Assembly: GCA_009841475.1 (NCBI GenBank)
Contig: VXLT01000110.1
Coordinates: 1-33,738 of the forward strand
DNA: 33,738 bases
Source: Gemmatimonadota bacterium
GTDB taxonomy: Bacteria > Gemmatimonadota > Gemmatimonadetes > Longimicrobiales > Gaopeijiaceae
Reading direction: 5' to 3'
Part shown: one piece after another, positions 13,887-25,516 of the stretch
Numbering within the stretch: position 1 is the first letter of the stretch
How the letters are laid out: each line of letters starts with the position of its first letter
Position numbers and translations under genes: made by a program
The notes under the pieces: generated by a model
Told to the model about the DNA's origin: nothing
What the model saw: the letters and a program-made list of their open reading frames with translations, nothing else
Databases searched by the model: none

Positions 13887-15749
13887 ATGACCCCACGCAG
13901 CATCGTCGCCAGTACGGTCGCCGTGGCCATTTTTTCGCTGGTTCCCTGCACCCCCTCCGCCGCCCAGGAGGGCGCGGAGATCTTCGAGACCGCGTGCGCG
14001 AGCTGCCACACGCCTGCGGGCACCGAGCGCGCGCCGGGGGTCAATCTCCTCCGGCAGCTCACCCCCCGTGCCATCGTCGCCTCCCTCGAGGACGGCGTGA
14101 TGCGTGCCGAGGGCGCCGACCTGACGCGCGAGGAGCGCATCGCCGTGGCCGAGTACCTTACCCGCCGCCGCTACGAAGCCAGCCGTGTCCCGGAGTCCAC
14201 CTTTTGCAGTGGGCTCCCCTGGACCGGCATGGACCCGGCCACTGTCTCCTGGATGGGCTTCGCAGGCAACCTGGCGGGCACGGGCTACCAGCCGCCGGAG
14301 CGGGCGGGGCTGAGCGCGTCCGATGTGCCCAGCCTCGAGTTGCGCTGGGCGTTCGCCTTTCCGGGCGGCACGAACATGCGGACCTCGCCCGCGGTCGCCG
14401 GTGACGCCGCCCTGGTGGCCGGGCCGTTCGGCGAGGTGGTGGCGCTGGACCTGGCAACCGGGTGCGTACGGTGGGGTTTCGAGGCGGATGCGCTGGTCCG
14501 GGGCGCCATCGTGGTCGGCGAGGGGCCGGAGGGGCGCTCGGCCGCGTATTTCGTGGACTCGCGCACCAGCGCATACGCCGTCGACCTGGAGAGCGGTTCA
14601 CTGCTCTGGAAGCAGCGGGTCGGCTGGCACGCCGTCGCATACGGCACCGGAAGCCCGGCCCTTCACGATGGACGTCTCTTTGTTCCCGTCTCTTCACTGG
14701 AGGTCACGGCGGCGGGTGATCCGCGATACGAGTGCTGCACCTCTTCCGGCGCGGTCGCAGCCCTCGACGCCGCTACCGGCGAGGTGCTCTGGTACCACCG
14801 GGTGATCCCCGGCTACCCTGAGGAGACGGGCAGGAACGGGATCGGGACGACGACCTGGGGGCCGTCCGGAGCCGCCGTCTGGTCCAGCCCCACCATCGAT
14901 CCCGCCCGCGGACTGCTGTACGCCGGAACGGGCGAGAACCTGACCCACCCCACGACCGGGAACAGCGACGCGATTCTGGCGCTCGACCTGGAGACCGGGG
15001 AGCTGGTCTGGTCGTTCCAGGGAACCTCCGGCGATGCCTTCAACATGGCGTGCACGCAGGCGGCCTACCGCGAGAACTGCCCCGATCCCGTTGGCCCCGA
15101 TCTGGACTTCGGGATGGCACCGATGCTGGTGACCCGTCCGGACGGCAAGGAGATCCTGGTTGCGGGGCAGAAATCGGGGATGGTGTGGGCTCTCGACCCC
15201 GACAACGACGGGGCGCTCCTCTGGTCGACGGCGGTCGGAAAGGGCAGCGCGCTGGGGGGGATTCACTGGGGGATGGCGAGCGATGGCCGCTACGCCTACG
15301 CACCGAACGCCGACCGGAACGCCGTGATCGTGGACGTGAATCCCGAGCGCGAACTCTCGCCGGGTCTGTACGCGCTTGACCTCATGACGGGCGAGGTGGT
15401 CTGGAGAGCGATGATGCCGGAGGACTCCTGCCGCGGCAGGAGGCGCTGCTTCGCCACCAATTCGGCCGGGGCTGCGGTGATCGACGGTGTGGTCTTCGCC
15501 GGCGGTCTGGACGGGGTGATCCGGGCCCACTCCGCGGTGGACGGGGCGGTGATCTGGGAGTTCGACACGACGCAGCCGGTCGAGACGGTCGGCGGGGTGC
15601 CCGGCAGGGGAGGCGCGATCGACGGTCCCGGACCGGTGGTGGCCGGAGGCATGCTCTTCGTCAACAGCGGCTACGGCACCTTCGGCCAGATGCCGGGCAA
15701 CCTGCTGCTGGCGTTCGCGGTGGGCGATTCCGGCGGCGACGGCAGCTGA
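13887..15749 (+). CDS. Exported cytochrome c / PQQ-type beta-propeller quinohemoprotein (PVA dehydrogenase-like)
   Basis: The 620-residue product has a signal peptide (cleavage near SAAQ). Next comes a small class I cytochrome c domain with heme motif CASCH (residues 37-41) and a likely distal ligand M72. An eight-bladed PQQ-type propeller follows, with repeated blade ends of the form VVALDLATGCVRWG, AYAVDLESGSLLWK and VAALDAATGEVLWY. A vicinal Cys pair lies in ECCTSSGAV, a hallmark of quinoproteins. An N-terminal cytochrome followed by the propeller, with CCT, is the order I recall for polyvinyl alcohol dehydrogenases, so a secondary alcohol-type substrate is likely but unproven. A GGAAG lies about 8 bases before the ATG. 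It heads a plus-strand run of four exported proteins behind a structured leader. Confidence 0.85.
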   Translation: MTPRSIVASTVAVAIFSLVPCTPSAAQEGAEIFETACASCHTPAGTERAPGVNLLRQLTPRAIVASLEDGVMRAEGADLTREERIAVAEYLTRRRYEASRVPESTFCSGLPWTGMDPATVSWMGFAGNLAGTGYQPPERAGLSASDVPSLELRWAFAFPGGTNMRTSPAVAGDAALVAGPFGEVVALDLATGCVRWGFEADALVRGAIVVGEGPEGRSAAYFVDSRTSAYAVDLESGSLLWKQRVGWHAVAYGTGSPALHDGRLFVPVSSLEVTAAGDPRYECCTSSGAVAALDAATGEVLWYHRVIPGYPEETGRNGIGTTTWGPSGAAVWSSPTIDPARGLLYAGTGENLTHPTTGNSDAILALDLETGELVWSFQGTSGDAFNMACTQAAYRENCPDPVGPDLDFGMAPMLVTRPDGKEILVAGQKSGMVWALDPDNDGALLWSTAVGKGSALGGIHWGMASDGRYAYAPNADRNAVIVDVNPERELSPGLYALDLMTGEVVWRAMMPEDSCRGRRRCFATNSAGAAVIDGVVFAGGLDGVIRAHSAVDGAVIWEFDTTQPVETVGGVPGRGGAIDGPGPVVAGGMLFVNSGYGTFGQMPGNLLLAFAVGDSGGDGS

Positions 15750-15831: not shown

Positions 15832-16677
15832 ATGAACAGATTGCCCGTTTGCGCGCTGATTCTCGTGGCGATGGCCGCCGCCTTCCCGGCCCTCGCGTGC
15901 GCTCAGACGCCCGGCATCCCCCGCACGCCCTCCGGCAGGCCCGACATGAACGGTCTGTGGCAGGCGCTCGGCAACGCCCACTGGGACATCGAGCCGCACG
16001 CCGCGCGGCCCGCGCTGGCCATGCAGCCCGGGCCGGTGATCCCGGTTCCGGCCAATGAGGTGCTGGCGCTGGGCGCGGTCGGGTCCGTCCCATCCGGCTA
16101 CGGCGTAGTCGAGGGCGGCGTGATCCCCTACCTGCCGGACGCCCTGGAGCTCCGCGACGAGAACCGCCAGATGTGGCTGGAGCGCGATCCGGAGATCAAG
16201 TGCTACCTGCCGGGAGTGCCGAGGGCGACCTACATGCCCTTCCCCTTCCAGATCTTCCAGAGCGACGCCAAGGTCTTCATGGCGTACGAGTACGCCGGCG
16301 CGATGCGCGAAGTCTACCTGGAGGACCCGGGCCCGCCCCAGGTCGATTCCTGGATGGGACAGTCGGTCGGCCGCTGGGAGGGCGACACCTTCGTGGTGGA
16401 AGTGAACGGATTCAACGGCCAGACGTGGCTGGACCGCGCGGGCAACCACCACAGCCCGGGCCTTACAGTGACCGAGCGGTACACGATGATCAGTGCGAAC
16501 CATATCATGTATGAAGCGGAGCTGGACGATCCGGAGACGTTCGCGCGGCCCTGGAAGATCCGCATGCCGCTGTACCGCAACATCGATCCGAATGCCCGTC
16601 TTGGGCAGTTCAAGTGCGTGGAATTCGTCGAGGAGCTGATGTATGGACACCTGCGCAAGAACCCGATCCGCCGGTAG
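15832..16677 (+). CDS. Exported protein of unknown function (TPxGRPDMxGLW / GRWEGDTFVV family), paralog 1
   Basis: The 281-residue product has a signal peptide (ALILVAMAAAFPALACAQ), then a PRTPSGRPDMNGLW opening and a conserved GQSVGRWEGDTFVVEVNGF block around residues 180-198. The following segment, TVTERYTMISANHIMYEAELDDPETF, is mostly beta. These motifs recur in the next gene, so the two are paralogs. Such proteins are common as exported hypotheticals in Gemmatimonadota and Acidobacteriota next to DUF6152 genes. I do not know a biochemical function; a lipocalin- or beta-sandwich-like binding role would be a guess. There is no strong ribosome site before the ATG. The last 35 bp overlap the next gene. 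Confidence 0.8.
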   Translation: MNRLPVCALILVAMAAAFPALACAQTPGIPRTPSGRPDMNGLWQALGNAHWDIEPHAARPALAMQPGPVIPVPANEVLALGAVGSVPSGYGVVEGGVIPYLPDALELRDENRQMWLERDPEIKCYLPGVPRATYMPFPFQIFQSDAKVFMAYEYAGAMREVYLEDPGPPQVDSWMGQSVGRWEGDTFVVEVNGFNGQTWLDRAGNHHSPGLTVTERYTMISANHIMYEAELDDPETFARPWKIRMPLYRNIDPNARLGQFKCVEFVEELMYGHLRKNPIRR

Positions 16678-17761
16678 GGCTCCCGGGAGGGACGCCCTCT
16701 TCCTGTCGGCCGTGGGCATCGCGGCCGCGGGGCTGGCGCTCGCCGTCGCCCCCCACGCGACCGCCCAGGAGCGTGAGGCAGCAGCCATCGAGTGGGTAGT
16801 CCCCCGCACCCCCGCCGGTCACCCGGATCTGCAGGGGAACTGGACCAACGCCACCACGACGCCGATCCAGCGCCGGGAAGGTCAGGGCCCGGTCTATACC
16901 TGGGAAGAGGTCGCCAGGATCGAGGGCTTCAGGGAGGGCGTGCGGCGGGCGGCGGGCGCTGACAGCGATCCCAACCGGGGAGCGCCTCCGGTCGGCGGCA
17001 TCTTCACCGGCGATGCGCGCAGCGACGCCGCGTCGGGAGGCACGGGCGGATACAACTACTTCTACATCGATCCGGGTGAGCGGGTGGCCGTCTTCAACGG
17101 CGAGCCCAGGACCTCGCTTGTGGTCCATCCCGAGAACGGGCGGGTTCCCGGACTCACCGACGAGGGCCGCCGCCGCTTCGGCGAGCGACGCCGCTTCCGC
17201 AGCCAGTTCGGCCAGTACGACAACCCGGAGAACCGGCCGCTGGCCGAGCGCTGCATCATGTCCTTCGGCTCGAACGCGGGGCCGCCGATGCTCCCCAACT
17301 ACTTCTACAACAACAACTACACGATCGTGCAGACCCCCGATCATGTGATGATCATGACCGAGATGGTGCACGACGTGCGGATCATCCGGCTCGGGGAGCG
17401 CAAGCCGCTGCCCGCGCACATCCGTCCGTGGATGGGCGACTCCTGGGGGCGCTGGGAGGGGGACGCGCTGGTCGTCGAGACCACGAATCTTCACCCGGAC
17501 CAGACCCTGCAGGGGGTCGCGCCTTCGGAGGAATTCAAGGTGATCGAAAGGTTCACGCGGGTGGACGAGCACACCATCAACTACGAATTCACCGTCGAGG
17601 ATCCGATCATGTGGAGCGAGCCATGGCGGGGCGAGGTGCCCTTCACGCGGCTTGACGGACTGGTTTACGAATACGCCTGCCACGAGGGCAACTACGCGCT
17701 GGAGAACGTGCTGCGCGGGGCCCGGGCGCAGGAGCGGCAAGAGCGGCAAGAGCGGAGGTAA
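16643..17761 (+). CDS. Exported protein of unknown function (GRWEGDALVV family), paralog 2
   Basis: The 372-residue product has a long n-region with Arg residues before a hydrophobic signal (FLSAVGIAAAGLALAVAP, cleavage near ATAQ). It shares with the preceding gene the opening VPRTPAGHPDLQGNW, the MGDSWGRWEGDALVVETTNL block and the following IERFTRVDEHTINYEFTVEDP segment. The middle region has an unusual NYFYNNNYTIVQTPDHVMIM run. The C-terminus ends in a short RQE repeat encoded by a 9-base tandem repeat. The ATG lies inside the preceding gene, preceded by GAGGAG with 7-base spacing; that and the 35-bp overlap imply coupled translation. Function unknown. Confidence 0.82.
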   Translation: MDTCARTRSAGRAPGRDALFLSAVGIAAAGLALAVAPHATAQEREAAAIEWVVPRTPAGHPDLQGNWTNATTTPIQRREGQGPVYTWEEVARIEGFREGVRRAAGADSDPNRGAPPVGGIFTGDARSDAASGGTGGYNYFYIDPGERVAVFNGEPRTSLVVHPENGRVPGLTDEGRRRFGERRRFRSQFGQYDNPENRPLAERCIMSFGSNAGPPMLPNYFYNNNYTIVQTPDHVMIMTEMVHDVRIIRLGERKPLPAHIRPWMGDSWGRWEGDALVVETTNLHPDQTLQGVAPSEEFKVIERFTRVDEHTINYEFTVEDPIMWSEPWRGEVPFTRLDGLVYEYACHEGNYALENVLRGARAQERQERQERR

Positions 17762-17768
17762 GGAAACG

Positions 17769-18218
17769 ATGCGCAAGAAATGGATTCTCGTGGCCGGCGC
17801 GCTGGTGCTGCTGGCGGCGGTCGCGGTCCCGGTCGTGGCCCATCACGCCTTCGGAGCCGAGTTCGATCGCAACGCACCGATCAAGCTCCAGGGCAAGATC
17901 GTCAAGCTCGAATGGGTGAACCCGCATACCTGGATCCACATCGAGATCGAGAAGGAAGACGGGACCAAGGAGGTGTGGGCGGTGGAGGGGGGAACGCCGA
18001 ACGTGCTGCTCAGGCGGGGCCTGCGCCGGGACTGTCTCGAGCCCGGGACCGAGATTATCGTCGACGGCTACCAGGCCAAGGACCACTCCCTGAAGCGTGC
18101 GAACGGACGTGACGTGACCTTCACCGACGGCAGCAAGATCTTCCTGGGCTCGTCCGGGACGGGTGCGCCGTACGAGGAGGAACTGCTCAAGGCAAGGCGG
18201 CAGCAGGGGCGCTGCTAG
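17769..18218 (+). CDS. DUF6152 family exported protein with His-His at the predicted mature N-terminus
   Basis: The product has 149 residues. The signal peptide ends PVVA and the mature protein is predicted to start at H25-H26 (HHAFGAEFD), the most conserved feature of the family as I know it. The body (KLQGKIVKLEWVNPHTWIHIEI, GGTPNVLLRRG, VDGYQAKDHS) looks like a small OB-fold or beta-barrel and also contains His residues. A free N-terminal His next to another His is compatible with copper or other metal binding; this is inference. A GGAGGTAAGGAA stretch precedes the ATG, 7 bp after the previous stop. The stop overlaps, tail to tail, the stop of the minus-strand DUF6644 gene. Confidence 0.88.
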   Translation: MRKKWILVAGALVLLAAVAVPVVAHHAFGAEFDRNAPIKLQGKIVKLEWVNPHTWIHIEIEKEDGTKEVWAVEGGTPNVLLRRGLRRDCLEPGTEIIVDGYQAKDHSLKRANGRDVTFTDGSKIFLGSSGTGAPYEEELLKARRQQGRC

Positions 18219-18685
18219 GAAAACCCGATCCAGCGTCCGGCGGCGGCCACGGTAAACCACAGCGCCAGTGACACGGCCCCGACGATGCGGCCGGTCATGC
18301 CGGGATCGTCGGCTGCCCGGCGCGCCACGCGTTCGCGCACCGCGAAGGTGAATGCCAGCGCGACCGGCAGCGTGCACATCTTCACCCAGAACGAGGTGTT
18401 GTAGTAGGCCTTGATGGCCTCCGACAGGAACAGCGGAATCCCCGTCAGGACCATCACGATGACGCTCGCGACGAGCCACGGCCGGGCGTAGCGCGCCAGG
18501 CGGGCGACCGGCTGGCTGGTGAGGCCGACACCGAGCAGTCTCAGGTCCACGACGAGCAGCGCGCCCCCGAGCATGCACAGGCCGAGGAGGTGGACGGCCT
18601 CCAGGATCGGGAAGGCCCACACCGAGTCGGCGATCGCCCTGCCGATCAGCGTCGATTCGCACCAGCGGAAGAAGGGTTCGAGCAT
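18215..18685 (-). CDS. DUF6644-like membrane protein, copy 1
   Basis: The 156-residue product has four hydrophobic helices. The first helix region contains FPILEAVHLLGL followed by DLRLLGVGL. Later helices follow the order RPWLVASVIVMVLTGIP, an AYYNTSFWVK hinge, and a C-terminal AVSLALWFTVAAAGRW. The same layout occurs in copy 2 (next minus-strand gene), so these are tandem paralogs. The family is uncharacterised. A conserved His in helix 1 might bind heme, but copy 1 lacks some of the His residues of copy 2. It lies 72 bp downstream of copy 2, with no obvious own ribosome site. Confidence 0.8.
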   Translation of the reverse strand: MLEPFFRWCESTLIGRAIADSVWAFPILEAVHLLGLCMLGGALLVVDLRLLGVGLTSQPVARLARYARPWLVASVIVMVLTGIPLFLSEAIKAYYNTSFWVKMCTLPVALAFTFAVRERVARRAADDPGMTGRIVGAVSLALWFTVAAAGRWIGFS

Positions 18686-18757: not shown

Positions 18758-19315
18758 CTACTCCGTCCCCACGGGGCATCCCGCTACCCAGTTCACCCAC
18801 CCGGGCTGGGGCTGGATGTCGCAATCGAACCAGTTGTAGGCGATGAGGCGGCCCGTCACCACGACCACCGTCCACACGGCCAGCGACACCGCGCCGGCGA
18901 TCCGCGCCGCCCGCGGCGGGGAGGCGTCCCGGTCCCACTCTGCGGCGTGGCGGTGCACCCCGTTGTGGAAGATCGCGACGTTCGCGCCCGCCAGCAGGAG
19001 CACCAGCACCTTGATCCGGAAGAAGAGGTTGTGGTAGTAGCGCAGCGGTTGCGAGTAGAAGAGGAGGAGCCCGGTCACGGTCATGACCATGAACCCGATG
19101 TGGGTCCACGGCAGAAGGCGCCCCGTGAATGCCGTGACCGGCACCTTGCGGAACCCCACGCCGAGAAGCCGCAGGTCCATCATCACGGTGGTGCCGACGA
19201 AGAGGCCGAGCGCAAGGACGTGGGTCGACTCCACGAGCGGCCACACGTAGAGCGACTCGAGGAGCGCCACGCTCCAGGGAGTCTCGCCGAGCCAGACCAG
19301 GAACCGTTCGATCAA
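18758..19315 (-). CDS. DUF6644-like membrane protein, copy 2
   Basis: The 185-residue, four-helix product parallels copy 1 helix by helix: PLVESTHVLALGLFVG, MMDLRLLGVGF, HIGFMVMTVTGLLLF, YYHNLFFRIKVLVLL, and AVSLAVWTVVVVTGRL. It has extra His residues (ESTH, WTH, YYH and IFHNGVHRH) near membrane ends, suggestive of heme or metal binding in the manner of b-type cytochromes. That is a hypothesis. The start is taken as TTG 19315, whose last two bases are shared with the TGA of the upstream cytochrome gene (TTGA overlap); no ATG fits. Its position directly after a cytochrome lipoprotein suggests membrane electron transfer. Confidence 0.75.
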   Translation of the reverse strand: MIERFLVWLGETPWSVALLESLYVWPLVESTHVLALGLFVGTTVMMDLRLLGVGFRKVPVTAFTGRLLPWTHIGFMVMTVTGLLLFYSQPLRYYHNLFFRIKVLVLLLAGANVAIFHNGVHRHAAEWDRDASPPRAARIAGAVSLAVWTVVVVTGRLIAYNWFDCDIQPQPGWVNWVAGCPVGTE

Positions 19316-19842
19316 GGGTGCCCGGGGGTTGAGCCGTCCGGCCGGCCGGCGGGGGAGGCCTCGCCCGCGGCAGGATCCGGAAGGGTGTCGTAGTTGGGGC
19401 GCAGCGTCTGGGTGGCGTACACGGCATGGCACCCGGTGCAGACCAGGTAGACGTCGCCGCCGACCTCGAATACGCGGTCGGGATCGCGTGCCTGCGCCGC
19501 CTCGACCGCCCGCATGCCGATGTCGATCATCGCGCGGGACATCGCCACCCAGTGGTCGCCCTGCACGCGCTCCTGCAGCAGGAGGAGGTTGCCCGATTCG
19601 GCAAGCACCCAGGCCGCATTCTCCGCGGCCTCCCATTCCTCCGCGGTCCGGGGCTCGATCCTGTACTCACCCTCCAGGTCCATGATGATTCCCACCGCGT
19701 CCCAGTAGACCTCGGCTGCCGGCTCGAGCACCGACAGCATCAGCTGCTTCGAGTCGGCCGCGGCGACGAATGGGGGCGGGCCGGGGGCATCGGCGCACGC
19801 GCCCGCGAGCAGTAGGGCGCAGCTAAGAGTCAGTGTTCTCAT
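19312..19842 (-). CDS. Exported cytochrome c'-like (class II type) protein, probable lipoprotein
   Basis: The 176-residue product has a signal (LTLSCALLLAGAC) ending in an imperfect lipobox. The rest is mainly helical, and a single heme motif CTGCH lies near the C-terminus (C135, C138, H139) after a helix that includes RAVEAAQARDPDRVFEVGGDVY. A late CxxCH after three helices is the class II (cytochrome c') arrangement. It may carry electrons or bind small ligands in the periplasm. It is the first gene of a minus-strand set with two DUF6644 membrane proteins, and is divergent from the PQQ dehydrogenase fusion, 181 bp away. The longer open frame upstream was rejected because the signal peptide begins at ATG 19842. 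Confidence 0.8.
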   Translation of the reverse strand: MRTLTLSCALLLAGACADAPGPPPFVAAADSKQLMLSVLEPAAEVYWDAVGIIMDLEGEYRIEPRTAEEWEAAENAAWVLAESGNLLLLQERVQGDHWVAMSRAMIDIGMRAVEAAQARDPDRVFEVGGDVYLVCTGCHAVYATQTLRPNYDTLPDPAAGEASPAGRPDGSTPGHP

Positions 19843-20023: not shown

Positions 20024-22885
20024 ATGAAATCGTACTCCCGGATGCTACGCCACGGTCCGGCCCTCGCCGTCCTGGCTCTCGCGGCCACCGTGCCGTCCGC
20101 CGGCGCGCAAGCCCAACAGTCCGACTGGCCGATGCACGGACGGGACGCCGCCGAAACCCGCTACAGCCCCCTCGACCGGATCAACACCGGCAACGTGGAT
20201 CAGCTCGGGGTTGCCTGGAGCTGGGAGATCCCCAAGACCGGCGCCCGTCTGGAGACCACGCCCATTGTCGTGGACGGAGTGCTCTACGGCACGGCGGCGT
20301 TCAGCTTCGTATTCGCGCTCAACGCCGTCACCGGCGAGGAGATCTGGCGCTGGGACCCAGCGATCCCGCATGAGCGGCGGGGCGGCCCGCCATCCTGCTG
20401 CGGCGACGTCAACCGTGGTGTCGCGCTTCATGGAGACAAGGTCTTCGTTGGCCTGCTGGACGGCCGTCTCGTGGCCCTCGACCGCACCGACGGTTCAGTA
20501 GTCTGGACCGTACAGACAACACCGGCCGGATCCGACTTCACCATCACAGGTGCGCCGCGGGTGACCGGAAACGCCGTCGTCATCGGCAACGGGGGGGCCG
20601 AGTACGGCGTCCGCGGCTACGTCACCGCCTACGACACCGAGACGGGGGACGCGTTGTGGCGCACCCACACGGTCCCCGGGGATCCAGCCGACGGATTCGA
20701 GAGCGAGGCCATGCGGGCCGCAGCCGAGACCTGGACTGGCGAGTGGTGGGTGGTGGGCGGCGGCGGAACCGTCTGGGACGCGATGGTGGCCGACCCCGCT
20801 GCAAACCTGTTCTACATCGGCACCGGCAACGGCTCGCCCTGGAACCGCGACAACCGCAGCCCGGGCGGGGGCGACAACCTCTACCTCTCCGCCATCGTGG
20901 CCCTCGACCCGGACGACGGGTCCATCGAATGGCACTACCAGACGACGCCGGGGGATGACTGGGACTACACCGCGACCCAGCCGCTCATGCTGCTGGACCT
21001 CGAAATCGGCGGCCAGGAACGGCAGGTCATCGTCCAGGCGCCCAAGAACGGGTTCTTCTACGTGGTCGACCGGCTGACCGGCGAACTCATCTCGGCCGAA
21101 CCCTTCGCCGACGACCTCACCTGGGCCACCGCGGTCGACCTGGCAACCGGGCGTCCCATCGAGACTCCCGAAGCACGGTATGGCATGACCGGGAAGGGAG
21201 TCTACCTGGCCCCGGGTCCGAGCGGCGCCCACAACTGGCACCCCATGTCGTGGAGCCCGCGCACCGGGCTGGTCTACCTCCCCGCCACCAACAACAACTA
21301 CTACTTCGAGAAGGAGGAAGGATTCGAATACCGGGCGGGCAGGTGGAACACGGGCACCGTCCAGGGGGCCAGTGACCAGCGGCCGGAGCGCCCGCCCCTC
21401 AAGGGGCCGCACAACGTGCTTCTCGCGTGGGATCCGGCGGAGAACGCCGAGAGGTGGCGGGTCGAGGCCGACGGCGGACACGGCGGAACCATGGCCACGG
21501 CGGGCGGCCTGGTGTTCTGGGGCACGGATTCGCGGCTGGCCGCGCTCGATGCCCGCACCGGCGAGGAACTCTGGTCCGCGAATGTCGGAGGTGGCACCGC
21601 GTCGCCGGTCACCTACGAGGTGGACGGCACGCAGTACGTCTCCATCGCGGCCGGGCTGGTCAGCAGCGGTGGCGAGCAGCGCGTCTGGAGCTTCGCGCTG
21701 GGGGCGGAAGAGGCCACCCAGGACCTCACCACCGCCACCCCCGAGGAGGTCGGTCTCTCCAGCGAGGTCCTCGCGCGCATCGGCCCGACCATGCAGCAGT
21801 TCATCGACAACGAACGGACGGCGGGGATCATGACGCTGGTCGCCCGGCGCGGCGAGATCGTGCACTGGGACGCCCACGGCTGGCGCATCCGGGATGAGGA
21901 CCCCCTTGAACCCAACGACATCTTCCGCATCTACTCGATGACCAAGCCGGTCACGAGCGTCGCCGCAATGATCCTCGTCGAGGAGGGCCGCCTCTCGCTG
22001 GACGATCCTCTCTCCAGCGTCATCCCCTCCTTCGCCGACATCCAGGTGTACGACGATGGCGAACTTCGCCCACCGACCCGCCCGGTCCTGATCCGCGACC
22101 TGCTGTCCCACACCTCCGGCCTCACCTACGGCGTCTTCGGCAACACGCCGGTCGACTCCATCTACCGGGCCGGTCTCGGCGCCCTCGACATGCGCGGCGG
22201 CGGGGACCTTGCCGCACGCGCGGAGGCGATCGCGTCCTTTCCCCTCATCGACGATCCGGGCGACCGGTGGATCTACAGCCTGTCCACGGACGTTCTCGGC
22301 CGCGTGGTCGAGGTGGTCTCGGGCCAGTCGCTGGACGCCTTCTTCCGGGAGCGCATCTTCGAGCCGCTCGGGATGCACGACACCGGCTTTCACGTGGCCG
22401 AGGGCAAGGCGGACCGCTTCACGCAGGTGTACCTCCGCAGCCGCGACGGGCTTGTCGCCCCCCCCTCCCGCGGCGGCGACCGCTTCACGCGGCCTCCGTC
22501 CTGGTACTCGGGCGGCGGCGGCCTCACTTCGACGGCGGCCGACTACCTCCGCTTCTGCGAGATGCTCCTCGGCGGCGGCGAGACGGACGGCGTCCGCATC
22601 CTGAAGCCGGAGACCGTCGAACTCATGACGCGGAACCACCTGCCGGACGAGATGATCCCCGTCCTGGGCCTCCCGGGCCAGGGCTTCGGACTCGGATTCG
22701 CGGTGTCGGTCGGCGAGAACCCCGGGACCTACTGGTGGTCGGGCGTGGCGAACACCTTTTTCTGGATCGATCCGGAGCGCGAGATCATCGCGTTTGCGTG
22801 GACCCAGCTGCAGCCGTACGGCATGGCTCCCGTCGACCGCCTGCTGAGGCCCATCGTGTACGAGGCGATCCTGGACGGGAATTGA
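20024..22885 (+). CDS. Fusion: PQQ-dependent alcohol dehydrogenase-type propeller + serine beta-lactamase/EstB-like esterase
   Basis: One uninterrupted 953-residue frame. Residues 1-29 are a signal peptide. About 32-560 form a PQQ methanol/ethanol dehydrogenase-type propeller: DWPMHGRDAAETRYSPL opening, vicinal Cys C125-C126 in SCCGDVNRG, and candidate Ca/PQQ ligands E193 (GGAEYGVRGY) and N269 (GTGNGSPWN). An Asp of GDDWDY (D314) is the likely catalytic base. From about 570 on there is a class C beta-lactamase/EstB-type domain: a TPEEVGLSSEVLARI opening, SMTK (S638, K641), Y751 in YSLSTDVLG, and W905-S-G907 as the third motif. The C-terminal cytochrome c found in quinohemoprotein dehydrogenases is missing; the hydrolase stands in its place. 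The protein should be periplasmic. The metallopeptidase gene starts 3 bp downstream. Confidence 0.9.
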   Translation: MKSYSRMLRHGPALAVLALAATVPSAGAQAQQSDWPMHGRDAAETRYSPLDRINTGNVDQLGVAWSWEIPKTGARLETTPIVVDGVLYGTAAFSFVFALNAVTGEEIWRWDPAIPHERRGGPPSCCGDVNRGVALHGDKVFVGLLDGRLVALDRTDGSVVWTVQTTPAGSDFTITGAPRVTGNAVVIGNGGAEYGVRGYVTAYDTETGDALWRTHTVPGDPADGFESEAMRAAAETWTGEWWVVGGGGTVWDAMVADPAANLFYIGTGNGSPWNRDNRSPGGGDNLYLSAIVALDPDDGSIEWHYQTTPGDDWDYTATQPLMLLDLEIGGQERQVIVQAPKNGFFYVVDRLTGELISAEPFADDLTWATAVDLATGRPIETPEARYGMTGKGVYLAPGPSGAHNWHPMSWSPRTGLVYLPATNNNYYFEKEEGFEYRAGRWNTGTVQGASDQRPERPPLKGPHNVLLAWDPAENAERWRVEADGGHGGTMATAGGLVFWGTDSRLAALDARTGEELWSANVGGGTASPVTYEVDGTQYVSIAAGLVSSGGEQRVWSFALGAEEATQDLTTATPEEVGLSSEVLARIGPTMQQFIDNERTAGIMTLVARRGEIVHWDAHGWRIRDEDPLEPNDIFRIYSMTKPVTSVAAMILVEEGRLSLDDPLSSVIPSFADIQVYDDGELRPPTRPVLIRDLLSHTSGLTYGVFGNTPVDSIYRAGLGALDMRGGGDLAARAEAIASFPLIDDPGDRWIYSLSTDVLGRVVEVVSGQSLDAFFRERIFEPLGMHDTGFHVAEGKADRFTQVYLRSRDGLVAPPSRGGDRFTRPPSWYSGGGGLTSTAADYLRFCEMLLGGGETDGVRILKPETVELMTRNHLPDEMIPVLGLPGQGFGLGFAVSVGENPGTYWWSGVANTFFWIDPEREIIAFAWTQLQPYGMAPVDRLLRPIVYEAILDGN

Positions 22886-22888
22886 AGA

Positions 22889-25516
22889 ATGCCCTACGCC
22901 AAACGCTCCACGCCCTCCCACCTGATCGGCTACGCCGCCCTCCTCGCCCTCGCCGGTTGCGGCGGCGACGACGGCGACCCCATTCCCCCCGAGCCCCCCG
23001 CCACACCGACGACCGTGACCATCACCCCGGCCTCCGTCACGCTGAACGCGGTGGGGGACCAGCAACAGTACCAGGCTCAGGTGCTGGACCAGCGGGGACG
23101 CGCGATGTCCGGCGTGACCGTGACCTGGTCGAGCACCCAGCCGGGAGTGGCGGAGGTCGACCGGGCGACGGGGCTCGCCACCGCCGCCGGGCCCGGAACG
23201 GCGGGCATTCGTGCGGTGGCCCAACGTGTCAGCGGCGAGGTGACGCTCGAGGTCGTCCAGGTGCCCGTGGCGCTGGAGAAGACGCAGGGCGACGGTGAGG
23301 TGGGGTTCTTCGGTGAGGCGCTGGCGGTGTCCCCCGCCGTCCGGGTGCTCGACGCGAACGGGCATCCGGCCCCGGGGAAGGGCGTCGTCTTCGAGGTCAC
23401 CTCCGGAGGCGGATCCGTGTTCCCCGAAGTCGCCAACACCGGCCCGGACGGGGAGGCGCGGACCGAGTGGACGATGGGGGAGGATTCCGTACAGACGCTC
23501 AGCGCATCGGCATCCGGGCTGACGGCCGAATTCACGGTCACCGCGATCGAACCGCCGCTGGAGATCCTCACCGACTCGCTTGCCTGGGGACGCGCAACGC
23601 TGGACTACCTGACCGTGCTATCGGCCAAGGGAGGCTCCCGCATGGGGTACGTGTGGAGTCTCGCCGATGGTGCGGCGTTGCCCGGCGGGCTCGAGATCAC
23701 CGCGGACGGGCGGATCCAGGGGACGCCCGAGGAAGCCGGTGTGTCGGAGGTGGAGGTGCGCGTGACCGACTCCAACGGCCGGGACACCACAACCACCTTC
23801 GGGTTGCGAGTTTGCGACGCGCCCCTGGGGCTGGAGGTGGGGGATGTGACGACCGTCGATCCGGAGGAACTGGAACCGTGCGGGTTCCTGGTGGTCGCCG
23901 ACGAGGCCGGAGCTTACTACCGGGTAACTTTCGCGGGGCTCAACGGGGAGCGTCGGGCCAGCTGGCAGGCGAACCTCTTGATGGAACCGCTTCCGGGTCA
24001 GACTGCGGCGTTCCGACCCACGGTCGCCCGGCGGGGGGCCCGCCGACCGGCCGAAGCGGACCAGGACTGGGCCGCCACGTCGGCGGCGTGGTCGGAAATG
24101 CGTGAGATCGAACGCGCCAACGAACAGCTGCACCGGGAGATACGGCGCCAGGAAGCCGAACTCATGCGGGAAATGATGGCTCGTGGCCCGCTCGAAATCC
24201 TCCCGGACCGGCCCGTAGCCCAGGCCCGGCGAACCGCGGTGACTCCCGTCACCTTCAAGCTCTACGACCGCTCACCCGGGGCGACGAACCGTTGCGCGGT
24301 GCACCAGACCGTGGTCGCCGACGTAATCGCGGAGAACGACGACTTCATCGTCTATGAGGACGTAGAAGCCACCTCGCCCGTGTCAGTCGAAAACGCGAAC
24401 CGGATTATCGACTTCTACACGGAGCACGGCAAGGAGATCATCGAGCGCTACTTCGGCGGGGTCAGCGACGTGAACGGCGATGGCAAGATCGCGCTGCTAG
24501 TGGATGCGACGTTGCCGGGCGTGCAGGCGTTCGTCTGGTCCGCCGACTTTACCTTTCCCGCCACGAGCTGCCCCGCATCGAACGAGATGGAGCTCGTCCA
24601 CATGAGCGTCGGAGGCTTCGATTTCGGCAACGACCGATACTGGGCACTCTCGGCGCTTGTACACGAAGTCAAGCACGTCAGCTCCATGTACAAGCGCGTC
24701 GTTAACCACCGGCTTCGAGGGGGAACCGGGGAAAACACCTTCCACCCCGTCTGGATCGAGGAGGGGACGGCCGAGATCGGCAAGGAGATGAGTTCGCGGC
24801 TGGCCTGGGAGCGCGCGGGGGGGCCCGCGGCGGGGGCACGCGCCTTCGGCGACACGATGCGGATCGCGCTCCGCGAACACGCACCCGAGTTCTACGGCGT
24901 CTTCAGCATGATGAACCGGACAGTGCTGGCCTTCTCCCAGGATCCCAACGGCATCACCTTCGACCCCGGGGACCGGCTTGCCCCGCTGTACGGCAGCGGC
25001 TGGCACTTCCACCGCTTCTTGCGCGACTGGGCGGCAGGTGGCGGCGCGGGGATGGACATGGCCGGCGACGAGGCGCTAGTGACGGCGCTCAACGACTCGC
25101 TCACCGCGCCGGGGGTCGAGGGGATCGAGGATGTGATGGGCATGACGATGGCCGAAATGCTCCACGCCCACGCCATCGCGATGACTGTCGCGGGCTCCGA
25201 GGACGTACTGATCGACGACGCCACGCCGCGCTTCCTGTCCTACGACTTCCCCACGGCGACCGAGATCTTCATCAACCCCGACCCGCCGGGGCGCTATCCC
25301 TGGCCCAGGACGTTGACGGGCGACGACGACCTGTCATCGGTGCCGGCCGCGGTGCTCGGCGAGGAGCAGCGGTTCAATGGGCGCGTCACCTCGAACGGCA
25401 TACGAGTACTCGACTTCGAGGCGATGGAGGCAGGAGCCCGGGCGGTGTTCCGCGTGACCGCGGGGCCGGAGGTCTCGGTGATCGTGGCCCGGATCGTGAA
25501 ACCGCCGGGCTTCTAG
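22889..25516 (+). CDS. Multi-domain lipoprotein: Ig-like domains plus M30-like zinc metallopeptidase
   Basis: The 875-residue product has lipobox LAGC (C24) followed by an acidic, Pro-rich linker. A BIG_2-type Ig domain follows (about 42-125, with SVTLNAVGDQQQYQAQVLDQRG), then a BIG_1-like domain (about 127-222). A putative-Ig (He_PIG-like) domain covers about 225-310, with LPGGLEITADGRIQGTP. A charged helical stretch lies near 405-437. The C-terminal half contains a zinc motif HEVKH (H592, H596) and, 28 residues later, WIEEGTAEIG, whose Glu is the probable third ligand. That matches gluzincins of the M30/hyicolysin kind. It is probably a surface-anchored protease with substrate-binding Ig modules. 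The ATG lies 3 bp after the fusion gene, so they are likely co-transcribed. Confidence 0.83.
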   Translation: MPYAKRSTPSHLIGYAALLALAGCGGDDGDPIPPEPPATPTTVTITPASVTLNAVGDQQQYQAQVLDQRGRAMSGVTVTWSSTQPGVAEVDRATGLATAAGPGTAGIRAVAQRVSGEVTLEVVQVPVALEKTQGDGEVGFFGEALAVSPAVRVLDANGHPAPGKGVVFEVTSGGGSVFPEVANTGPDGEARTEWTMGEDSVQTLSASASGLTAEFTVTAIEPPLEILTDSLAWGRATLDYLTVLSAKGGSRMGYVWSLADGAALPGGLEITADGRIQGTPEEAGVSEVEVRVTDSNGRDTTTTFGLRVCDAPLGLEVGDVTTVDPEELEPCGFLVVADEAGAYYRVTFAGLNGERRASWQANLLMEPLPGQTAAFRPTVARRGARRPAEADQDWAATSAAWSEMREIERANEQLHREIRRQEAELMREMMARGPLEILPDRPVAQARRTAVTPVTFKLYDRSPGATNRCAVHQTVVADVIAENDDFIVYEDVEATSPVSVENANRIIDFYTEHGKEIIERYFGGVSDVNGDGKIALLVDATLPGVQAFVWSADFTFPATSCPASNEMELVHMSVGGFDFGNDRYWALSALVHEVKHVSSMYKRVVNHRLRGGTGENTFHPVWIEEGTAEIGKEMSSRLAWERAGGPAAGARAFGDTMRIALREHAPEFYGVFSMMNRTVLAFSQDPNGITFDPGDRLAPLYGSGWHFHRFLRDWAAGGGAGMDMAGDEALVTALNDSLTAPGVEGIEDVMGMTMAEMLHAHAIAMTVAGSEDVLIDDATPRFLSYDFPTATEIFINPDPPGRYPWPRTLTGDDDLSSVPAAVLGEEQRFNGRVTSNGIRVLDFEAMEAGARAVFRVTAGPEVSVIVARIVKPPGF

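Follow-up and report, generated by a model that had tools for sequence, protein, structure and literature searches.

A PQQ alcohol dehydrogenase propeller fused in frame to a family VIII.1 esterase in a genus of Gemmatimonadota

Results

A single open frame of 953 codons runs uninterrupted from position 20024 to 22885 (+ strand) of the window, by which we mean the whole 33,738-nucleotide stretch analysed here; its genome is a draft MAG of 369 contigs. The order along the encoded protein is signal peptide, complete PQQ alcohol dehydrogenase (ADH) propeller, short linker and family VIII.1 esterase with a beta-lactamase fold, and Pfam profiles match at residues 35-356 (PF01011) and 590-936 (PF00144). 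The frame also stays open upstream of 20024, and the start of the fusion gene was set there because this is where the signal peptide begins. The parts of the fusion gene are as follows.

20024..20113, + strand: signal peptide MKSYSRMLRHGPALAVLALAATVPSAGAQA, residues 1-30, with a hydrophobic peak at about residue 13 and an Ala-rich end
20117..21700, + strand: predicted PQQ ADH beta-propeller, residues 32-559 (TIGR03075, match to 1kv9, residue alignment and structure model)
21701..21727, + strand: linker, about residues 560-568 (low model confidence and junction comparison)
21716..22882, + strand: predicted family VIII.1 esterase with beta-lactamase fold, residues 565-953

The upstream block consists of genes for a quinoprotein, two proteins without a family, a DUF6152 protein, two DUF6644 membrane proteins and a lipoprotein cytochrome c. 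The neighbouring genes are these.

13887-15749: quinoprotein whose propeller follows an N-terminal cytochrome c domain (TIGR03075, 100.7 of 480 bits)
15832-16677 and 16643-17761: two related, block-conserved proteins with no Pfam or NCBIfam match
18215-18685 and 18758-19423, - strand: two DUF6644 membrane proteins, side by side and conserved beside the cytochrome c gene
19312..19839, - strand: c-type cytochrome of 175 aa, a lipoprotein (lipobox LAGAC) with CTGCH close to its C-terminus, transcribed away from the fusion gene
22889..25516, + strand: large lipoprotein containing Ig-like domains and an HEVKH motif; its gene begins 3 bases past the fusion stop codon

The quinoprotein is a distinct redox protein of the conserved block. 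A lipoprotein cytochrome with a C-x-x-C-H motif lies beside the fused gene in the 11 longer loci of the genus (L168-L178) and is likewise kept at the esterase-only loci of G003, g12 and G027; the one in the window is a candidate electron acceptor of the fusion protein. A homolog of the Ig-domain lipoprotein is found just 3' of the fused gene in most longer loci, and its gene in the window is probably co-transcribed with the fusion gene. The HEVKH motif of this lipoprotein, together with a downstream Glu (WIEEGTAE), possibly marks a zinc metallopeptidase.

The preliminary description of this DNA had claimed one frame without stop or frameshift at the junction and a single N-terminal signal peptide, and both observations stand. 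The protein is predicted to be exported by a Sec-type route, and its N-terminus was modelled with low confidence. An AlphaFold2 model of the fusion protein (66 sequences; mean pLDDT 85.7) contains two confident domains with a weak spot at residues 562-567, but the relative orientation of the domains is left open because pTM is only 0.60. In Foldseek comparisons, the propeller matched 1kv9 and 1kb0 and the esterase matched EH7 and EstG.

The N-terminal half scored 563.8 bits against TIGR03075 (PQQ-dependent dehydrogenase, methanol/ethanol family; cut-off 480.05) over residues 28-545 and matched 1kv9 with E=3e-162 in the comparison with solved structures. Residues C125, C126, E193, N269 and D314 align with C116, C117, E185, N263 and D308 of 1KB0, respectively, and W251 and K341 also align onto the PQQ/calcium site of this structure. 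We take the adjacent cysteines of 1KB0 to form the PQQ disulfide, its Glu, Asn and Asp to be calcium ligands and D308, equivalent to D314 here, to be the catalytic base. All of the PQQ/calcium-site residues (C125/C126, E193, W251, N269, D314 and K341) are invariant among 22 distinct fused proteins, with the one exception of an E193→D change. Two residues past D314, all 22 of these proteins carry T316, as in the calcium type; this is the position of the extra Asp of lanthanide-dependent ADHs (XoxF/PedH type), a class that is thereby ruled out. The propeller half would be a PQQ- and calcium-dependent alcohol dehydrogenase that folds in the periplasm.

Type II quinohemoprotein ADHs (1kb0, 1kv9, 1yiq; TIGR03075) share the fold, the Cys pair, the calcium and PQQ ligands and the catalytic Asp with the propeller at 44-48% identity, but they carry a C-terminal heme c domain in the position where the fusion has its esterase. 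A motif check of the fused proteins found no CXXCH and no heme c domain, which rejects a heme c hidden inside the fusion and also membership in the type II group, whose relatives do have CXXCH. The closest relatives of the propeller, mostly at 63-76% identity across the domain, are stand-alone proteins of Gemmatimonadota and Acidobacteriota (L055-L068, L119-L127) that lack the heme domain as the fusion does, but stop with a short tail at about residue 559 and have no esterase. Several records titled Gammaproteobacteria or BD2-11 (L054, L060, L061, L068, L056) have propellers that fall inside the Gemmatimonadota group, and their titles are probably outdated; the L054 propeller duplicates that of G033. 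Four propeller genes lie on a Bryobacteraceae contig (L079, 413-8813), three of them in tandem on one strand and one on the opposite strand.

The C-terminal half carries the motifs S638-M-T-K641, Y751-S-L, G830-G-G-G833 and W905-S-G907 and lacks G-X-S-X-G, in agreement with the definition of family VIII.1 (S-X-X-K, Y-X-X with the catalytic Tyr, W-X-G, G-G-X-G and no G-X-S-X-G; PMC9795927). None of S638, K641, Y751, W905 and G907 varies among the fused proteins, and the 27 esterase-only relatives keep them too, apart from W905 in one. Solved family VIII.1 esterases (EH7, 7pp3; 4ivi; EstG, 7u1b) share the same four motifs at about 40% identity, with TM-scores of 0.84-0.91 on the target, but are stand-alone enzymes, whereas the esterase of the fusion sits behind a propeller and lacks its own signal peptide. 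The domain had been called EstB-type in the preliminary description; the beta-lactamase-fold hydrolase is indeed there, but family VIII.1 is the better label, given that the nearest solved structures are EH7, EstG and 4ivi rather than EstB (1ci8). A class C beta-lactamase is ruled out by Y-S-L and W-S-G in place of Y-A-N and K-T-G and by a score of 26.7 bits against 415 for NF033085. The methyl acetate hydrolase AcmB (NF052559) aligns over residues 595-934 at 205.6 bits, far short of the cut-off of 550; AcmB is stand-alone and its substrate is not transferable. The C-terminal half appears to be a Ser-Lys-Tyr family VIII esterase.

All the residues listed in the preliminary description (C125-C126, E193, N269, W313-D314, S638/K641, Y751, W905-S-G907) are correctly placed. 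Its claim that two intact exported enzymes are joined is strongly supported, with the catalytic residues complete in both halves. Pairwise dN/dS lies at 0.08-0.15 in the propeller and at 0.09-0.21 in the esterase, and purifying selection acts on both halves of the fusion.

The same one-frame fusion is present in 20 of the 23 genomes of the genus, the window's own included, with linkers of 4-12 residues; the other 19 fused proteins are 73-88% identical to that of the window, and two of the fusion-bearing genomes (G001 and G021) are single contigs. Two of the remaining genomes (G003 and G014) have the esterase only, and G010 has no close homolog of either part. The fusion also occurs in the named records L039-L053. 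The related named records are Gemmatimonadota MAGs, several with sample codes that presumably belong to marine sponge studies. Elsewhere in the family, one fused gene was found in another genus (G030; a 1025-codon frame with a 29-residue linker), in a gene context different from that of the genus fusions. The G067 bin is likely mixed: its fused gene is almost identical to that of G002, and it also has the separate genes that characterise its own genus. No further fusions were found among matches with E < 1e-100 in 395 genomes of the phylum, and no plasmid record covers 80% of the fusion protein. In G233 (L161, 5203-8309), two unfused genes stand divergently side by side, one for a stand-alone family VIII-like esterase and the other for a PQQ dehydrogenase of the heme type.

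These genomes settle whether the fusion is real. A draft of 369 contigs might in principle join two adjacent genes through an assembly or binning error, and the preliminary description had raised an indel at the junction and homologs always encoded as two genes as grounds for doubt. Because the same frame recurs in 20 genomes, two of them single-contig, an assembly error is refuted and the indel excluded even without raw reads, and within this genus the homologs are not always two genes; purifying selection also stands against an artefact, the chance of which we consider negligible.

We compared gene order and trees to reconstruct the history of the fusion. Genus g12 and G027 (genus g6) have the same block, ending in a propeller-less esterase gene with its own signal peptide, and in G071 the propeller stands alone between the genes that flank the entire block in the window. 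Over 300 bases, the sequence preceding the g12 esterase genes aligns at about 73% with that preceding the L017/L018 fused genes; for the region upstream of the G014 gene, the alignment with L027/L019 stands at 67-68% over 116-154 bases. Esterase-only genes from G003/G014 and g12 nest with strong support within the fused group of the esterase tree, and for this reason AU tests reject a single clade of all fused esterase domains (p = 3e-41 with G030, p = 3e-69 without it); placing g12 alone outside the fused group is also rejected (p = 0.0002). A common origin of all fused propellers, G030 included, is not rejected (p = 0.24). Since esterase-only genes occupy the same place and share homologous upstream DNA, gene order and trees suggest that the block already contained an older esterase gene, that a propeller most likely entered this gene between its signal peptide and its body, and that the propeller was later lost at least twice. 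Alternatively, there might have been several independent gains, or transfer between lineages.

We also looked for PQQ synthesis genes. PqqC (TIGR02111) was not found in the window genome or in the genus genomes listed among 298 genomes of the phylum, both single-contig ones included, but was over the cut-off in 34 other genomes of the phylum, and PQQ is therefore probably obtained from outside the cell. No genus genome had a PqqE match over the cut-off, although the control genomes of the PqqE search contained no true positive either. Genomes of genus g1 have several PQQ dehydrogenase genes, yet PqqC was not found in them, so they possibly rely on external PQQ.

Discussion

We propose that the fusion protein is a periplasmic enzyme in which a short linker tethers a calcium/PQQ ADH propeller to a family VIII esterase (Ser-Lys-Tyr). 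The latter would cleave an ester and the adjoining propeller would oxidise the alcohol product (ester to alcohol to aldehyde). With the usual heme c domain missing, electrons would leave PQQ through a separate c-type cytochrome, possibly the neighbouring lipoprotein. PQQ would be taken up from outside, and the gene would have been born by insertion of a propeller gene into a resident esterase gene. For this proposal as a whole, we estimate a probability of roughly 0.5; the narrower idea of a single-polypeptide, two-step oxidative esterase, with the esterase in place of the heme c domain and PQQ supplied by other organisms, is tentative and falls a little short of even odds.

A coupled reaction, in which the alcohol released by ester hydrolysis is then oxidised, is plausible, and it is the most economical reading because two intact active sites are exported together; the weak methyl acetate hydrolase match is also consistent with it. 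Several observations nevertheless point against the proposal, including that same match being below its cut-off, the unfixed domain orientation and the propeller-less esterases. G003, G014, g12 and g6 have the esterase alone at this locus, so it can work without a propeller. An ester of a simple alcohol is also not assured as substrate, because a cyclic glucose hexamer is what EstG, a close solved relative, acts on (PMC11389396). A shortage of PQQ may count against the proposal as well, if uptake fails.

Alternatively, both domains may be active but uncoupled, with the fusion providing co-export and fixed stoichiometry for two enzymes of the same catabolic block that act on different bonds in a complex substrate or on different substrates. 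The esterase is the older resident of the block, the propeller stands alone in many relatives and the linker varies in sequence as well as length, all of which fit this explanation; retention of the fusion in most of the genus, despite repeated chances to split and with both active sites intact, does not, and we consider it doubtful, if the most serious competitor. If the genus cannot make PQQ, the propeller might instead be a PQQ-less scaffold or binding domain for an esterase that alone functions in vivo. The PqqC and PqqE results and the apparent losses of the propeller would accord with such a role, as would the existence of 'empty' quinoprotein relatives in NCBIfam (TIGR04528). However, the propeller reaches just 338.8 of the 650 bits required by that family and retains all PQQ, calcium and catalytic residues under strong selection, and bacteria that do not synthesise PQQ can use it from outside, as E. 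coli can, so that a scaffold seems unlikely. It is more improbable still that the fusion is an EstG-like envelope enzyme acting on periplasmic glucans, with the propeller oxidising a sugar or glucan alcohol. EstG ranks with the solved structures nearest to the esterase domain (TM-score 0.91 on the target) and has a cyclic glucose hexamer as its reported substrate (PMC11389396), but EH7, a broad ester hydrolase (PMC9795927), and 4ivi are as close by sequence as EstG (7u1b/7uda), and no glucan genes were seen in the block around the fusion gene.

Literature searches returned no described PQQ-esterase fusion; the architecture appears to be new, while both component enzyme kinds are already known. 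Known PQQ alcohol dehydrogenases either carry heme c domains or stand alone, and their conserved fusion to an esterase in nature would offer a new route for feeding ester-derived alcohols to a PQQ ADH in the periplasm. It would also represent a ready-made bifunctional enzyme for synthesis or sensing. For this uncultured lineage of Gemmatimonadota, the fusion offers a testable hypothesis of substrate use, and its apparent inability to synthesise PQQ suggests that the cofactor is shared within its community.
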